Shown here: positions 8,154 to 23,340 of the stretch, piece by piece
How the letters are laid out: each line of letters opens with the position of its first letter
Position numbering within the stretch: the stretch's first letter is position 1
NCBI RefSeq assembly: GCF_010586825.1
Contig: NZ_JAAAGB010000003.1
Location: 372,001 to 436,000 of the forward strand
Source: Draconibacterium mangrovi
Lineage (GTDB): Bacteria > Bacteroidota > Bacteroidia > Bacteroidales > Prolixibacteraceae
Length of the DNA: 64,000 nt
Direction: 5' to 3'
The notes under the pieces: model-generated
The model's database searches: none
Told to the model about the DNA's origin: nothing
The model's input: only the letters and a program-made list of their open reading frames with translations
Position numbers and translations under genes: made by a program

Positions 8154-9425
8154 ATGATATTATTGTCAGCACAAACAACCGTAATTATAACCAGTGTAGC
8201 TGTTTTCCTGGGCGTAATTATTCTGTTGGTGGCCATACTTTTGTTCGCCAAAAAGAAACTTACACCATCGGGAACTGTTAAGATTGATATTAACGATGGT
8301 TACCTGGAAATGGAAACTGAACCCGGAAGTACACTTTTGAGTGCTTTGGGAAATAATAAAGTGCTGCTTCCTTCGGCATGTGGAGGAGGTGGTACCTGTG
8401 GAATGTGCCGTTGCCAGGTTACTGAAGGTGGTGGTTCAATCCTGCCAACAGAAACCGGTTTCTTCACACGTAAGGAACAAAATGACCATTGGAGACTTGG
8501 TTGCCAGGTAAAAGTTAAGGAAGACATGAAAATCCATATGCATCAGGAAATTCTTGGTGTGAAAAAATGGGAATGCGAAGTGGTATCGAACCACAACGTG
8601 GCTACTTTCATCAAAGAATTTGTGGTTAGATTACCTGAAGGCGAAAACCTTGATTTCAAATCGGGTGGATATATCCAGATCGATGTACCTAAAGTTGACG
8701 TAAACTTTAAGGACATGGATATTGAAGAAGAATACCGCGAAGAGTGGGAAAAATTCGGCATGTTCGACCTGGTTATGAAAAACCCGGAACCAACATTCCG
8801 TGCATACTCAATGGCTAACCACCCTGCCGAAGGTAACATTGTAATGTTGAACATTCGTATTGCAACTCCACCATTCGATCGTGTAAGCAATGGCTTTAAG
8901 AAAGTAAATCCGGGTATCTGTTCATCATACATTTTTAACCTGAAACCAGGTGATAAAGTAACTGTATCCGGTCCTTACGGAGAATTCTTCCTGAAAGACA
9001 ACGACAGCGAAATGATGTTCGTTGGAGGTGGTGCAGGTATGGCGCCAATGCGCTCGCACTTATTCCACCTGTTCCACACCATTAAAGAATCGGAAAAGAA
9101 AGTTACTTTCTGGTACGGAGCTCGTTCGTGGAAAGAAGTTTTCTACTACGATCAGTTCAGAGATATCGAGAAAAACTTCCCTAACTTTGAATTCCATTTG
9201 GCGCTCGACCGTCAAGATCCGGAAGCCGATAAACTGGGAATTGAATATAAAATTGGATTCGTACACCAGGTAATTCACGACAACTACCTGAGTCAGCATG
9301 AAGAACCGGAAGAAATCGATTTCTACATGTGTGGACCACCAATGATGAACGACGCCGTTCAGAAAATGCTTTACGATTTAGGCGTTCCGGACGAAAACGT
9401 ACTGTTCGACGACTTTGGATCGTAA
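8154..9425 (+). CDS. nqrF: Na+-translocating NADH:quinone reductase subunit F (NADH-oxidising)
   Basis: Electron-entry subunit that oxidises NADH through FAD and a [2Fe-2S] cluster. One N-terminal membrane helix (about residues 8-30) precedes a plant-type ferredoxin domain with cluster ligands Cys76, Cys82, Cys85 and Cys117. A ferredoxin-reductase-like module follows: RAYSMANHP for FAD, GGGAGMAPMRSH for nucleotide and MCGPPMMNDAV near the C-terminus. Length (423 residues) is typical. It is the last gene of the operon; an intrinsic terminator lies about 100 nt downstream, after a heptamer repeat array. Confidence 0.97.
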   Translation: MILLSAQTTVIITSVAVFLGVIILLVAILLFAKKKLTPSGTVKIDINDGYLEMETEPGSTLLSALGNNKVLLPSACGGGGTCGMCRCQVTEGGGSILPTETGFFTRKEQNDHWRLGCQVKVKEDMKIHMHQEILGVKKWECEVVSNHNVATFIKEFVVRLPEGENLDFKSGGYIQIDVPKVDVNFKDMDIEEEYREEWEKFGMFDLVMKNPEPTFRAYSMANHPAEGNIVMLNIRIATPPFDRVSNGFKKVNPGICSSYIFNLKPGDKVTVSGPYGEFFLKDNDSEMMFVGGGAGMAPMRSHLFHLFHTIKESEKKVTFWYGARSWKEVFYYDQFRDIEKNFPNFEFHLALDRQDPEADKLGIEYKIGFVHQVIHDNYLSQHEEPEEIDFYMCGPPMMNDAVQKMLYDLGVPDENVLFDDFGS

Positions 9426-9442
9426 GAAAAGTTTATAGGACC

Positions 9443-9519
9443 GAGTTGCGAGATACGAGTATCAAGAATCTAGAATCCAGTATCAAGCATCCACTATCCA
9501 GCATCGAGAATCCAGTAAC
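9443..9519. repeat. Heptanucleotide tandem array (11 x 7 bp)
   Basis: Eleven consecutive 7-bp units with no insertion or deletion, consensus NAGNATC (for example GAGTATC, AAGAATC, CAGTATC, AAGCATC, CAGCATC, GAGAATC). It lies between the nqrF stop and its terminator, so it would be in the 3' untranslated part of the nqr mRNA. It resembles in style the heptameric STRR repeats described in cyanobacteria; relatedness is not implied. Confidence 0.75.
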
Positions 9520-9528
9520 GATATTTCA

Positions 9529-9560
9529 AAGCCACTTCTCTTTTGGGAAGTGGCTTTTTT
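9529..9560 (+). terminator. Intrinsic terminator of the nqr operon
   Basis: A 10-bp perfect stem (9529-9538 with 9547-9556), 8-nt loop, and a run of T to 9560. Confidence 0.9.
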
Positions 9561-9680
9561 AATGCCCTGTCCCTACTTCGGTTTCACGCAGATTTTCGCA
9601 GAAATACTTTCACTTTCTTCTGCCCCTTCTTACAAACGGGGGTAGTTTGTGGGAAGTTGGGGTGTTTCTCAAATTCAAGC

Positions 9681-9911
9681 ATTTCTTAATCCGAAGCGGT
9701 TATTTCTCAAGTTAAACCTGCCATTTCTTCAGTCGAAGCACATATTTCTCGACTTAAAGCTGTCATTTCTTCGGTTGAAGCACTCATTTCTTGAGTTGAA
9801 GTGGTCATTTCATTAAATGAAGTACACGTTTCTCAACTTAAAGTGGTTATTTCCTGACTTGAAATAGTTATTTCCCGGCTTCAAGCACTTATTTCCTAAG
9901 GTGAAGCAGCC
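9681..9911. repeat. 21-bp tandem array (11 exact-length units)
   Basis: Units begin at 9681, 9702, 9723, 9744, 9765, 9786, 9807, 9828, 9849, 9870 and 9891, always exactly 21 bp apart, each starting with ATTTC/GTTTC and carrying a TTGAAG-like core. A degenerate unit continues at 9912. Sequence between units has diverged considerably while the length has not changed. Read on the minus strand, the units give a heptad peptide pattern (EMTASTx), but stop codons fall at the seventh position in several units, so it is not a continuous gene now. The array abuts the 3' end of the YwqK-like lipoprotein gene. Confidence 0.85.
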
Positions 9912-9926
9912 GTTGTTTGAAATCTT

Positions 9927-10658
9927 CTATAGGTTAATTGATTTTGACACCACTCCCCTGTTCTGGTAACGGGTAGAATATTCGGCGGTTATTGTAATGG
10001 TTCCGCTTGTTTGCGATACGACAGTTTCACCAACATCGTTTCTTGTCTGCAGGGCTTTCATCTTTTTAGGCATATATTTACCTTCAAGCAGATCGCCAAT
10101 GTAATAATCAACATTATCATAATCGTCGCTTAATTGGGCCTGAATTAAGACGCCTGTGGCAACGCGGTGTTTTGTAAGTATTAATTTGGGCTCTTCGATC
10201 TCCTTCCCCGATTCGGTGTATTCTTTTAAACCAACAGCGCGTAATCCGTTTTTATACTCGTATTCGGCCTGCAATGTTCCGTTGCGGTGATAACGCTTAC
10301 AAGTGCCATGTAGCTCATCTTCTTCGTAAGGTTGCTCTTTCCAAATCTGTGGTTCGCTGTCCAACGATGCCTGGTAATAGGTGTAAGCTACGCCTTGCTT
10401 TTTTCCGGCAATGTAAGGTATGGTCGAATATAAACTTCCGTGGAGGTAGTAGCGCTTCTGGATGCCGTGTTTTATCGCTGTTCCTTTTACAACCGATATT
10501 TCGTACTCAATCTGTTCGGAGTTACGATATGGCCGTTTAACGATTTCCAAACCGCTGCTCTCTTCATTGGTAGTTTCCGCAGTGTCTTTTTTAGATTCCG
10601 AATTACAAGCACCCAGAAGTAACAGTGCTGCAAACAAACAGTAAATCCATCCTTTCAT
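9927..10658 (-). CDS. YwqK/MORN_2-like repeat lipoprotein
   Basis: A 243-residue predicted outer- or inner-membrane lipoprotein: the signal ends in the lipobox LGAC with Cys18. The middle contains repeated motifs of the MORN_2/YwqK type, with a pattern of HG..RYY.G.L....Y..GK..G (for example HGIQKRYYLHGSLY and LHGTCKRYHRNGTLQAEYEY). Such repeats occur in many Bacteroidota surface proteins, and in proteins annotated as 'YwqK antitoxin', a name with little functional support here. No toxin partner is adjacent. The gene is solitary, divergent from the 10929 gene, and its 3' end touches the 21-bp tandem array. Function unknown. Confidence 0.65.
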   Translation of the reverse strand: MKGWIYCLFAALLLLGACNSESKKDTAETTNEESSGLEIVKRPYRNSEQIEYEISVVKGTAIKHGIQKRYYLHGSLYSTIPYIAGKKQGVAYTYYQASLDSEPQIWKEQPYEEDELHGTCKRYHRNGTLQAEYEYKNGLRAVGLKEYTESGKEIEEPKLILTKHRVATGVLIQAQLSDDYDNVDYYIGDLLEGKYMPKKMKALQTRNDVGETVVSQTSGTITITAEYSTRYQNRGVVSKSINL

Positions 10659-19881: not shown

Positions 19882-20259
19882 TTATTTTACGGCTATCGTT
19901 TCAATTTCGACCATTACCCCCAGCGGCAGTTCTTTTACGGCAAAGGCTGCTCTTGCCGGTGGTGTCTCGCTGTAATATTTTCCGTAAACTTCGTTCATGG
20001 CTTTAAAATTGGCCATGTCGCTTAACAGGCATGTCGATTTTACTACGTCGGAAAACGAATAACCGGCCTCGGTTAATATCTCACCAATGTTTTTCATTAC
20101 CTGCTCGGTTTGCTCAGTAATTCCGCCTTCAACAACTTTCATGGTTGCCGGGTCGAGTGGTACCTGTCCTGAAATATAAAGTGTTCCGTTAACTTCAACC
20201 GCCTGGCTGTATGGCCCAATTGCCGCTGGTGCTTTTTCTGTAGCTATAATACGTTTCAT
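19882..20259 (-). CDS. ridA: RidA family reactive intermediate/imine deaminase
   Basis: A small (125-residue) trimeric deaminase that hydrolyses reactive 2-aminoacrylate and related enamines/imines produced by PLP enzymes. Conserved elements are APAAIGPYSQAVEVNG at the N-terminus, ISGQVPLDP, and PPARAAFAV near the C-terminus with the arginine that contacts substrate carboxylate, followed by GVMVEIETIA. An upstream in-frame start at 20301 would add 14 residues unlike the family, so MKRIIATEK at 20259 is chosen. Upstream lies the 42-bp repeat array; downstream the GNAT gene follows after 9 nt. Confidence 0.93.
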   Translation of the reverse strand: MKRIIATEKAPAAIGPYSQAVEVNGTLYISGQVPLDPATMKVVEGGITEQTEQVMKNIGEILTEAGYSFSDVVKSTCLLSDMANFKAMNEVYGKYYSETPPARAAFAVKELPLGVMVEIETIAVK

Positions 20260-20378
20260 CTGTTTAATATTTTGGTGTGAAGATACCAAAAGATGCCCCA
20301 ACTTTCAAGCCCGGCGATCAAGCAACAAAACTTATTAATGGAAAAAAAACAAATGCATATTTTCGATTATTGTTAAAT

Positions 20379-20640
20379 GCGGAAGGGGTCATTTTTATCT
20401 AAAAATGTATCCTTCCGCACTTAAAGGGCCTTATTTTTTTGTAAAAACATTGCCTTCCGCAGTTAAAGGAGGGCATTTTCTTGCAAAAATGTATCCTTCC
20501 GCACTTAGAGGGGGTCATTTTTTTATCAAAACACTGCCTTCCGCACTTGGAAGGGGTCATTTTTTGGTAAAAACACTGCCTTCCATATGCGGAAGGATAC
20601 GTTTTTGCGTAAAAACGCTGCCCTCTAACTACAGAAACAA
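20379..20640. repeat. 42-bp tandem array (about six units)
   Basis: CCTTCCGCA-type unit starts fall at 20411, 20453, 20495, 20537, 20579 and 20621, exactly 42 bp apart with no indels. Partial copies extend the array to about 20379 on the left and 20640 on the right. Units hold a CCTTCCGCACTT segment, a GGGTCATTTTT segment and an A-rich end. Because 42 is a multiple of three, a frame stays open on the plus strand (20405-20668, a 14-residue repeat of the type TLPSALxGGHFxVK), but the composition and lack of a ribosome-binding site argue against coding. It fills the lptD-ridA spacer. Confidence 0.85.
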
Positions 20641-20664
20641 ACGTTTTTGCAGTGTAATTATCGC

Positions 20665-23340
20665 TTAGAAATTAAAGTTATCGTAGTGACTTTGCTGTTT
20701 CTGGATTTTCAAATCCTGCAGCATCGACGAAGATGCACTAATGGTAAAGCTGTAACTTTTACGGTAGCCAAAAGGCACAAAGTTAAACGACATGTTCCAG
20801 CAGTGCAGATCGCGGTTCAGGCGGAACGAGGTTAATGCAAACTCCCCTTCCTGAATATCGAAGTTGGTCATGGCACTCATTTGCCATTTATTGGTAATAC
20901 TAATATTTCCGCGTAAACCTAAAGTTTGGGTAACCCGCCCATTCGGATTACTGGCACTGGTTGCTCCGGTATAGTTTAAACTGTAGTCGAAACCAAAATC
21001 CCAGGGCATGCTAAAATCAAGATAGTCATCAAAAATAGGTGGAATCACGTCTTCCGGAGGCCCGGGAGTTTCATCCTCATTGTTGCCTTCGTTGTTTTCA
21101 CCCTTTTTCTTGTCTTTCGAGTTAAAATTCATTCCGAACGAAAGGTTGGCCCGGGTTACACGTCCCAGTTTGCCAATACCACTGCGTTCGTTCCAGGCAT
21201 ATTTATGAATACGACGGTAGTTCTCATCCACCATATACGGGTCGACCGTGGTTCCCATATTAATACTAACACCTGCCACAGTAGTACGTGCCCGAATAGA
21301 AAACGGAGCCAAATTTAATGAGTCACGAATCAGGTCATACGATGAAGAAATACTCAGGTTGTCAATTATTTTCACCTTCTTGTATTTCTGCTCTTCATCG
21401 GTTTTGGTGGAATCGCGCGTATCCAGCTTTTTCATTTCCAGGTTGTTGTTCAGCGCGAAATTAATCGATCCCGATTCTCCCATTCCGGGCGAACCACCGT
21501 AAATACCACCTAAGTTGGTATCGAAGTAGCGGGTATTTCCGTCTTCATCAACTTGCACTTCCTGCCAGTAACCGTAATGTTCCTTACCAAAATCGGGGCG
21601 GTAACTAAACGATACCGTTGGCGACATTTTGTGGCGAATACCCTTAATTTTAGAGTTCGGATTTCGAGGGATGTACATACCATAAATGTTGGCCGAAGCA
21701 CTAATACTATATGCGTAATCGTATACACGGTTTAAACCGGTAATCGTATCAATCCTAACATTGTCGGGAATAGTTGAAGGATTTCCGGTGTACTCGCCCC
21801 CTTCTTCGTAGTTATAGTTGTATTTTTTGAAGTACCATTTTTCGTTGTAACTAATGCCTGGGCTGAAATTTATGTAATTAAACAAATTAAAACTCGGGAA
21901 CGCAATGGGCAAGTTGTGGCGAATACCGTTTTTCCAGTCGGTAGCAAACGAACTGCTCAGTATTTCGCTTTCTTTGGCATTAATCGAGTTTCTAAAGTTG
22001 GCGGTATAGTTAATACCAAATTTTTCGTAGAACTTCACCGATCCGCTTCGGTTCTTTTTCCTGAGCGGATAGATTTTTGCCATGTTAAAGGTCATTTCGG
22101 GCAACGACAACGACATGGTGCTGTCCTTGGTGTTTTGCGAATGACGCAGGTTCATCGACAAATTAAAGGGTGTATTCTCAAATTTTCGTGAATATGAAAT
22201 ACTCGACGATTTTGTGGTCGTCAGGTAATCATTCATATTGTACGCATTCTGCTTATCGTAGCCGCTCGACGAAACGTTCACACTGGCCGAGAATGTTTGG
22301 TTAGGATTGGCTTTTGAATCCTGCGAGTGCGACCACAAAATTTTATATTGTGTGCCTACCGAGTAATTATCCAAACCTTGTTCGCCGTATTTGTTTTTGG
22401 CATATTCGAAACCGAAATTACCACCAAACTTATACCGTTTTTTATAATTCGTTTTTATACGTGTACCCCACGAACCACGCGAATAAATATCGCCCTGAAC
22501 AGCTAAATCGAAATATTCGCTTGCGGCCCAGTAATACCCTCCGTCGCGCAGAAAGAATCCACGGTTTCGCTCCTCACCGTACTTCGGAATTAAAATTCCC
22601 GACGAGTAGGTTGGCGAATTGGGGAAATATCCAAACGGAATAATAGGAAAATATAACGGGAAATCCTCTAAAACCATGTAGGCCGGTCCGGTAATTATCT
22701 TTTCGTTCGATATAACCTTTGCTTTTGTCAGGTGTAAATAAAAGTGCGGATGATCGGCATCGCAGGTCGTATATTTGGCATCCTTGGTAATAAACACTTC
22801 TTCGCCAATCTTTTTGGTACGGTCGCTATGAATAAAACCTTCGCCCTGTGCCGAAACAACTTTGGTAATAAAAGCCTTTTCCGTTTCGAAGTTATAACGC
22901 ATCGTTTCCGACTCGTACTCTTCAGAACCTTGCCGGAACAACGGTTTTTGGGTCATCTCTCCCACCGAATCCAGAACTCCTTCAGCATAAATTTCCTTGG
23001 TTTCTAAATCCAGCTCAATATAATACGCCTCCAGTTCAATATTTTGGTAAGTAACTTTTGCCTGGTTGTATAAATACACCTTTTGGCCGTCGAGCGAAAC
23101 AATCATCGAATCGGCGGCAGCATAATCAATGGGCGCATCAATAACCGGCTTTTCTTCCTTTACCATTCCCATTGTATCAATACCGGTAGTATCAACCAAA
23201 ATGGTATCATGTGCGCTGATATACTCAGATAAGATAGAATCGGGAACCTGTTGCTGTGGAGCCACACTAATGGTTGGTTCCTGAGCTAAAATCAAAAATG
23301 GAGCTACCAGGAATAAATATGTGATGATTATTTTATACAA
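20665..23340 (-). CDS. lptD: LptD-like LPS-assembly outer-membrane protein
   Basis: An 891-residue exported protein resembling LptD, the barrel that inserts lipopolysaccharide into the outer leaflet of the outer membrane. A signal peptide (about 1-19) and a variable segment precede an OstA/LptA-like beta-jellyroll with motifs VYLYNQAKVTYQNIELEAYY and EIYAEGVLDSVG. Then come the family-diagnostic stretch PLYFPIIPFGYFPNSPTYSSG and a long beta-barrel rich in aromatic-ended strands. A low-complexity acidic insert (about residues 740-760) is seen. A minus-strand TATTTTTG at 23376-23383 is well placed to be the promoter, about 31 nt before the start. Divergent from the amidase gene. Confidence 0.88.
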   Translation of the reverse strand: MYKIIITYLFLVAPFLILAQEPTISVAPQQQVPDSILSEYISAHDTILVDTTGIDTMGMVKEEKPVIDAPIDYAAADSMIVSLDGQKVYLYNQAKVTYQNIELEAYYIELDLETKEIYAEGVLDSVGEMTQKPLFRQGSEEYESETMRYNFETEKAFITKVVSAQGEGFIHSDRTKKIGEEVFITKDAKYTTCDADHPHFYLHLTKAKVISNEKIITGPAYMVLEDFPLYFPIIPFGYFPNSPTYSSGILIPKYGEERNRGFFLRDGGYYWAASEYFDLAVQGDIYSRGSWGTRIKTNYKKRYKFGGNFGFEYAKNKYGEQGLDNYSVGTQYKILWSHSQDSKANPNQTFSASVNVSSSGYDKQNAYNMNDYLTTTKSSSISYSRKFENTPFNLSMNLRHSQNTKDSTMSLSLPEMTFNMAKIYPLRKKNRSGSVKFYEKFGINYTANFRNSINAKESEILSSSFATDWKNGIRHNLPIAFPSFNLFNYINFSPGISYNEKWYFKKYNYNYEEGGEYTGNPSTIPDNVRIDTITGLNRVYDYAYSISASANIYGMYIPRNPNSKIKGIRHKMSPTVSFSYRPDFGKEHYGYWQEVQVDEDGNTRYFDTNLGGIYGGSPGMGESGSINFALNNNLEMKKLDTRDSTKTDEEQKYKKVKIIDNLSISSSYDLIRDSLNLAPFSIRARTTVAGVSINMGTTVDPYMVDENYRRIHKYAWNERSGIGKLGRVTRANLSFGMNFNSKDKKKGENNEGNNEDETPGPPEDVIPPIFDDYLDFSMPWDFGFDYSLNYTGATSASNPNGRVTQTLGLRGNISITNKWQMSAMTNFDIQEGEFALTSFRLNRDLHCWNMSFNFVPFGYRKSYSFTISASSSMLQDLKIQKQQSHYDNFNF

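Follow-up and report, generated by a model that had tools for sequence, protein, structure and literature searches.

A diverged 21-bp tandem array beside a presumed nqrF gene of Draconibacterium mangrovi, best read as a member of a genus-wide class of intergenic minisatellites

Repeated sequences outside of genes have been described in bacteria in several forms. The pneumococcal BOX element has the layout boxA-boxB(n)-boxC and represents one conserved sequence with fixed ends. REP and REPIN sequences are single or paired extragenic palindromes, which are linked to RAYT transposases, and CRISPR arrays consist of near-identical repeats with unique spacers. For P. gingivalis, the published description reports the BrickBuilt repeats of 23 nt, which are intergenic, contain stem-loops and differ in unit number between strains, as well as MITE464/PgRS, which are 41-nt tandem repeats (PMC4596501). 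The P. gingivalis repeats BrickBuilt and PgRS are the nearest described repeats to the arrays presented here. Among the openly accessible papers covered, no description of the present class was found.

Here, a stretch of 64,000 nucleotides from Draconibacterium mangrovi, called the window in the following, was analyzed with a focus on an array for which an initial annotation had claimed 21-bp units of strongly differing sequence (Table 1). This array is real. It consists of 11 contiguous units of exactly 21 bp each, and the pairwise identity of the units has a mean of 0.64 and a range of 0.48–0.81. A gapped profile alignment revealed no indel among the 11 units, and one 4-base deletion was located at the fading end of the array. 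TRF lists the array at periods 21, 42 and 84, and a super-period of 42 bp is present, in which the units partly alternate. The self-match score at lag 42 is 80 in comparison to maxima of 10.3–13.9 in ten block-shuffled 20-kb pieces, and no array came up when 1.48 Mb of shuffled loci were searched on both strands with a profile built from the units. The array is noncoding and has one of the periods (21, 41 or 42 bp) by which the class is defined. It is best read as a noncoding bacterial minisatellite belonging to a genus-wide intergenic class, the period of which is mostly 42 bp and less often 21 or 41 bp.

The array is flanked by two converging genes, nqrF on the left and a MORN_2 gene on the right. 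The name nqrF is presumed from the domain set and the operon. The terminator-like hairpin between nqrF and the array is absent from the output of a terminator scan, whose sole entry there is a weak site at 9625–9642. From the nqrF stop codon to its terminator (window 9430–9528), a 14-bp (7-bp based) repeat of the ATCCAGAATCAAG type is present, and 14-bp repeats resembling it recur elsewhere in the genome. Furthermore, palindromes of the CCCCTCGTTTGCAACGAGGGG type are dispersed near nqrF in the genomes G008 (L110, downstream of nqrF) and G030, and an apparent remnant of such a palindrome was seen by eye at window 9620–9650.

Table 1. Features of the window and the leader sequence (window positions, except for the leader, which is given by locus).
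Feature	Position	Strand	Remarks
Array under study	9681–9911	.	11 x 21 bp, type V; family consensus ATTTCTTGAGTTGAAGCAGTC
Degenerate twelfth unit	9660–9680	.	Same 21-bp register as the array under study, judged by eye
nqrF, left neighbor	8154–9425	+	2Fe-2S, FAD- and NAD-binding domains; points at the array
MORN_2 repeat protein, right neighbor	9927–10658	-	Lipoprotein-like N-terminus; points at the array
Terminator-like hairpin with T-run	9530–9560	+	Between nqrF and the array, by eye
Second class array	20383–20650	.	42-bp period, type I, strongly palindromic
lptD-like gene	20665–23340	-	Beside the second array
RidA-like gene	19882–20301	-	Beside the second array
Leader	L191:16840–17015	-	Also in L179, L208, L280 and L283–L302

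A shared unit consensus places the array in a family of 21 collected type V arrays (193 units) across the genus. By BLAST, this type V family is present in 10 of 37 genus genomes at orthologous as well as at unrelated loci. Among the 30 nqrF loci fetched from relatives, five contain a type V array. At the same site, L112, L113 and L026 harbor GGACNNGTCC palindromes in a 21-bp array that is unrelated to type V. The array families are patchy between species. BLAST searches with the window arrays, which cover sequence-similar arrays only, matched one of 149 genomes across the order, which is the own genome, and four of 61 genomes across the family, all from the own genus.

The wider class was captured by surveying 2.464 Mb of DNA, to which the genome of the window contributed about half and eight further genomes the rest; self-match was scored at lags of 9–70, and genes were called with a simple codon model. 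Here, 29 noncoding arrays reached a score of at least 40, with a top lag of 42 in 21 and of 41 in two of them (23/29); the remaining six have lags of 12, 14, 14, 16, 20 and 22. TRF, which allows indels, likewise yielded 29 noncoding arrays (at least 150 bp, score at least 80), of which 23 have a period of 42 (16 arrays), 84 (four) or 41, 63 and 82 (one each), and the others have periods of 16, 40, 60, 87, 97 and 98 (one each). Coding arrays with lag 42 also occur, four at a score of at least 40, and two in L163 are non-palindromic. BLAST clustering of 58 distinct class arrays (19 of type I, 18 of type V; 12 match their own reverse complement) resulted in about 18 unrelated sequence groups, types I and V being the largest.

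The spacing was also seen by scanning 37 genomes for patterns with a free gap of 31 possible lengths, without prior detection of arrays. Overall, 26 of 27 pairs are spaced by 21 or 42 bp. For CTTCCGCA, 18 of 19 pairs are exactly 42 bp apart, the exception being a single match in G004 with a different spacing, and all four distinct GGACNNGTCC pairs, derived from two orthologous arrays, are 21 bp apart; the matches for both patterns stem from few arrays, some of them orthologous. The type V pattern contributed four of four pairs at 21 or 42 bp. Control patterns read backward gave no matches in the 37 genomes. The density of the class is uneven; at a score of at least 28, G036 has no 41/42-bp array in its first 200 kb and G006 has one in 200 kb. 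In other genera of the same family (320 kb, four genomes, two genera), a non-palindromic 42-bp array (L249) and a 41-bp array (L255) were found, and L032 is a class array from outside the genus on a Bacteroidales contig.

Two side observations were made among these loci. The arrays L195:9166–9474 and L204:9282–9518, from two genomes and both between divergent genes, share a 78-bp flank of 87% identity and may be orthologues. Repeats of 47 bp with ACTGACCACC motifs (L198:1462–1545, L227:7257–7367, L228:5122–5232) are possibly the ends of insertion sequences.

The initial annotation had proposed a selection on spacing, to be checked by aligning the units and comparing substitutions with indels. 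For the array under study, 43 parsimony steps were counted, for which 2.0 indels are expected at the intergenic rate and none was seen (P = 0.13); the register is kept, but taken singly the missing indels are unremarkable. On the level of the class the proposal fared better. In 37 distinct arrays, which had been first detected in register, 1761 substitution steps and 20 indels were counted (88 per indel), in comparison to 968 steps and 43 indels (22.5 per indel) in a control set treated with the same script, which comprises 30 noncoding arrays with other periods and units mostly shorter than 42 bp. Per substitution, indels are therefore about four-fold fewer in the class (Fisher 2e-7; P = 0.0006 if whole arrays are permuted). 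The contrast is weaker if only the 12 controls with a period of at least 20 are used (289 steps, 9 indels, 32 per indel; P = 0.027), and for indels of 1–2 bases only, class and controls differ with P 0.003–0.006 (15–16 class indels). Ordinary intergenic DNA (30 regions of 5–30% divergence) showed 1188 substitutions and 56 indels (21.2 per indel). For type V overall, 638 steps let 30.1 indels be expected and five were seen, a count which leaves out the steps of 3 of the 21 loci that were cropped off their arrays.

Of the second array of the window (Table 1), six orthologues were available. In five, the length is either identical or shifted by exactly 42 bp, and the sixth is off by 2. Common indels in orthologous arrays had been named initially as the observation that would speak against any length constraint; with five of six orthologues in register, this comparison does not refute the constraint. 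Along 102 steps, 4.8 indels are expected and two were seen, which represents a trend (P = 0.14). Both occur in G033, one adding and the other removing a single base, so that the length is restored. In five orthologues, 56% of the dyad positions are paired in comparison to 11–41% in slid or moved controls, and 10 compensatory pairs were counted versus 0–6 in the controls. An open frame of 87 amino acids with 14-aa repeats arises from this array (window 20405–20668, plus strand); it is probably spurious, since the frame is not conserved in G033 or G036 and has no Pfam match.

Symmetry is a further property of a part of the class. With column permutation as the null, palindromicity reaches z of at least 3 in 14 of 26 class arrays and in none of 18 arrays with other periods; the remaining 12 class arrays stay short of this value. 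If a periodic array is identical to its reverse complement, each period contains two dyad centers, which results in one center every 21 bp at a period of 42 bp. Such a dyad-symmetric lattice is present in the second window array and is not significant in the family of the array under study; for the latter array itself, 328 of 2000 permutations reach the observed palindromicity. Covariation on the level of units is mixed in type I (119 units, 6 counted twice), with two dyad pairs at z above 6 and others down to -3.3, and is for this reason not part of the main evidence.

Taken together, the period is shared across unrelated groups, off-phase indels are several-fold rarer than in controls and roughly half of the class shows dyad symmetry. 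The reading preferred here, with a probability of roughly 0.42, is that these noncoding minisatellites change by whole units in helical register and form a putative protein-binding array. With a register of 21 or 42 bp, corresponding to two or four helical turns, successive sites would point to the same face of the DNA, and a DNA-binding protein or a family of such proteins might assemble along them. Located between transcription units, such an assembly could serve as a platform with an architectural or insulating role. The sequence would be free to drift as long as the spacing and, in many families, the symmetry are kept; type V, with spacing and no significant symmetry, would act as a row of direct sites. 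The occupation of the nqrF site by either a type V array or an unrelated 21-bp palindrome array in relatives is in favor of this platform. Against it count that the array under study is neither significantly palindromic nor well folded as RNA, and that the depletion of indels is non-significant in this array as well as in the orthologue set of the second one. Further points against it are the 12 class arrays below z of 3, the mixed covariation in type I and the initial detection of the arrays in register.

The main rival, ranked below the protein-binding platform and still a serious possibility, assumes that the minisatellites are functionless. Here, replication or recombination would duplicate blocks of about 42 bp, perhaps aided by hairpins at the dyads, so that the period reflects how the arrays are made, and whole-unit exchange would homogenize them. 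This is consistent with the differences between species, since arrays vary mostly by whole units while the bases drift, and with the patchiness of the families. Also the end units of arrays, which are often the most degenerate, fit this explanation, as do the bases of the second array, which change at least as much as the adjoining flank (54/251 versus 15/102 between G000 and G006). However, indels are rarer than in arrays of other periods from the same genomes, relatives retain a 21-bp array of another sequence at the nqrF site, and some compensatory change occurs at the dyads, all of which argue against a lack of function.

It is unlikely that the arrays act as RNA, being transcribed and folding into rows of hairpins that would serve as terminators, decoys or stabilizers. 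Both strands of the second window array do fold much better than their shuffles (z -9.4 and -11.5), but the array under study does not fold better than its shuffles (z -1.87 and -0.23). The gene context points in both directions. Of the 24 class arrays that could be placed (out of 26), nine lie between convergent, eight between divergent and seven between tandem gene pairs, compared to 239 convergent, 232 divergent and 1425 tandem pairs among all 1896 adjacent pairs. The convergent excess would fit an RNA role, and the eight arrays between divergent genes count against it; moreover, the excess is partly explained by gap length, as the gaps of at least 250 bp comprise 51 convergent, 96 divergent and 232 tandem pairs. 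Wobble-type mismatches are even across the strands, with 108 G-T and 107 A-C, and are not clearly heterogeneous between arrays (P = 0.09). This is expected of a symmetry on the DNA level and argues against selection for one RNA strand. Rfam at gathering thresholds reported only tRNA in the window and only tmRNA in six array loci.

A part of the class is accompanied by a leader. In L179, L191, L208 and L280, arrays of different sequence have a common conserved stretch alongside, whose core of about 80 bp gave 54 matches in 13 of the 37 genus genomes. A search of the family, covering 120 genomes, found the leader in 11, each of which belongs to the own genus; a plasmid collection gave no match and viral contigs one pattern match. 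Among 20 leader copies with flanks, 12 are followed by a 41/42-bp array 61–218 bp away in the 3' direction, and no copy has one on its 5' side. One further copy has a 22-bp array at a distance of 403 bp, and seven are without an array. The link of leader and array may be overstated, since the loci are among the best of the 54 matches, the query lies beside an array and orthologues are included. The genes adjacent to the leader belong to differing Pfam families or to none. RNAalifold of 23 leader copies gave no structure on either strand, and a decay of the units away from the leader is not significant (8/12, P = 0.09). Five leader copies without a 41/42-bp array (L288, L289, L290, L300, L302) instead have a common downstream sequence that resembles GATAGCCAC..CTGTTGTGGGTAAT and contains a short dyad.

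It is conceivable, though doubtful, that the class is the product of a dedicated system that builds or uses arrays, in which the leader would mark one end of a part of the arrays and the structure and spacing would be read rather than the sequence, the arrays of the window being leaderless. In the layout of leader and array, such a system would be similar to CRISPR and integrons; in contrast to these, spacers or cassettes are absent here. For the window arrays, which are without a leader, the flanks are common to orthologues only.

Even less probable is the kind of origin proposed for BrickBuilt, in which the arrays would be repeats inside a miniature transposable element. The dispersal of families within a genome and the common leader beside arrays of different sequence in a part of the class would fit such an element. 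However, a search for terminal inverted repeats gave a mean score of 8.1 for the own flanks of 26 arrays and the same 8.1 for 123 mismatched pairs, and type I or V arrays have no shared flanks except between orthologues. Also, the Y1 transposase PF01797, present in 35 of 37 genomes, does not track the arrays in its counts per genome: G002 has 14 of these transposases and no noncoding array in 80 kb, and G033 has one and many arrays.

The initial annotation had further offered a former heptad-repeat coding region, read on the minus strand with recurring stops. These heptads exist (frame -1, EMTTSTQEMSASTEEMTALSR...), but they are interrupted by stops, and the plus strand offers an FLxLKxx reading which is as regular and also contains stops. 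In total, the array has 2–10 stops per frame in all six frames. Among the 21 type V arrays (193 units), 10 have at least one open frame, which is possible by chance given short arrays and a period divisible by three, and the other 11 are interrupted by stops in every one of the six frames; the least interrupted frames of the family count 34 stops over 1351 codons and 42 stops over 1330 codons, and the conservation of codon positions is weakly uneven. The second window array, which is of another type, showed no clear synonymous bias in any frame against three species (G008, G006, G034); 0.12–0.50 of the substitutions are at synonymous sites, 0.18–0.25 being expected, and no frame stands out in all three comparisons. 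Additionally, the class arrays L182, L279 and L255 have a 41-bp period, with which a repeated peptide cannot be encoded. Although the period is divisible by three and both strands read periodically, a heptad-repeat protein gene, be it a remnant or still in use, is therefore rejected as highly improbable, as no open frame is conserved, stops occur in six frames and the class has 41-bp members.

Bacterial intergenic repeats are usually known by a common sequence; here, the common property is the spacing. A spacing common to arrays of differing sequence hints at a shared role on the DNA level or a shared way of making. A protein or process that reads or writes DNA at intervals of two turns, regardless of the sequence, would, if it exists, open a new route into nucleoid organization or the birth of repeats in Bacteroidota.

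In comparison with known systems, CRISPR arrays share the layout of a leader followed by an array with a part of the class. In contrast, the units of the class are diverged and stand head to tail, without identical repeats or spacers. Like REP and REPIN, the class includes extragenic palindromes, one group having CTTTCGTAG..CTACGAAAG dyads; it differs by forming long phased arrays without relation to Y1-transposase counts. Compared by description, the BOX element is likewise intergenic and has a tandem inner unit of similar length and stem-loops, but BOX is conserved with fixed ends, whereas the sequence of the class varies by locus. The closest resemblance is seen for BrickBuilt and PgRS. According to their description, these contain one sequence per family and are located inside elements with terminal inverted repeats (PMC4596501), whereas the class described here comprises about 18 unrelated groups with no inverted ends found and with one period. 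The likeness covers the occurrence in Bacteroidota, the intergenic position of tandem repeats with unit lengths of 22, 23 and 41 nt, the stem-loop potential, strain differences by whole units and a leader at one end (PMC4596501). If true, a reading or writing of DNA at two-turn intervals might also account for these 22-, 23- and 41-nt repeats of P. gingivalis (PMC4596501).
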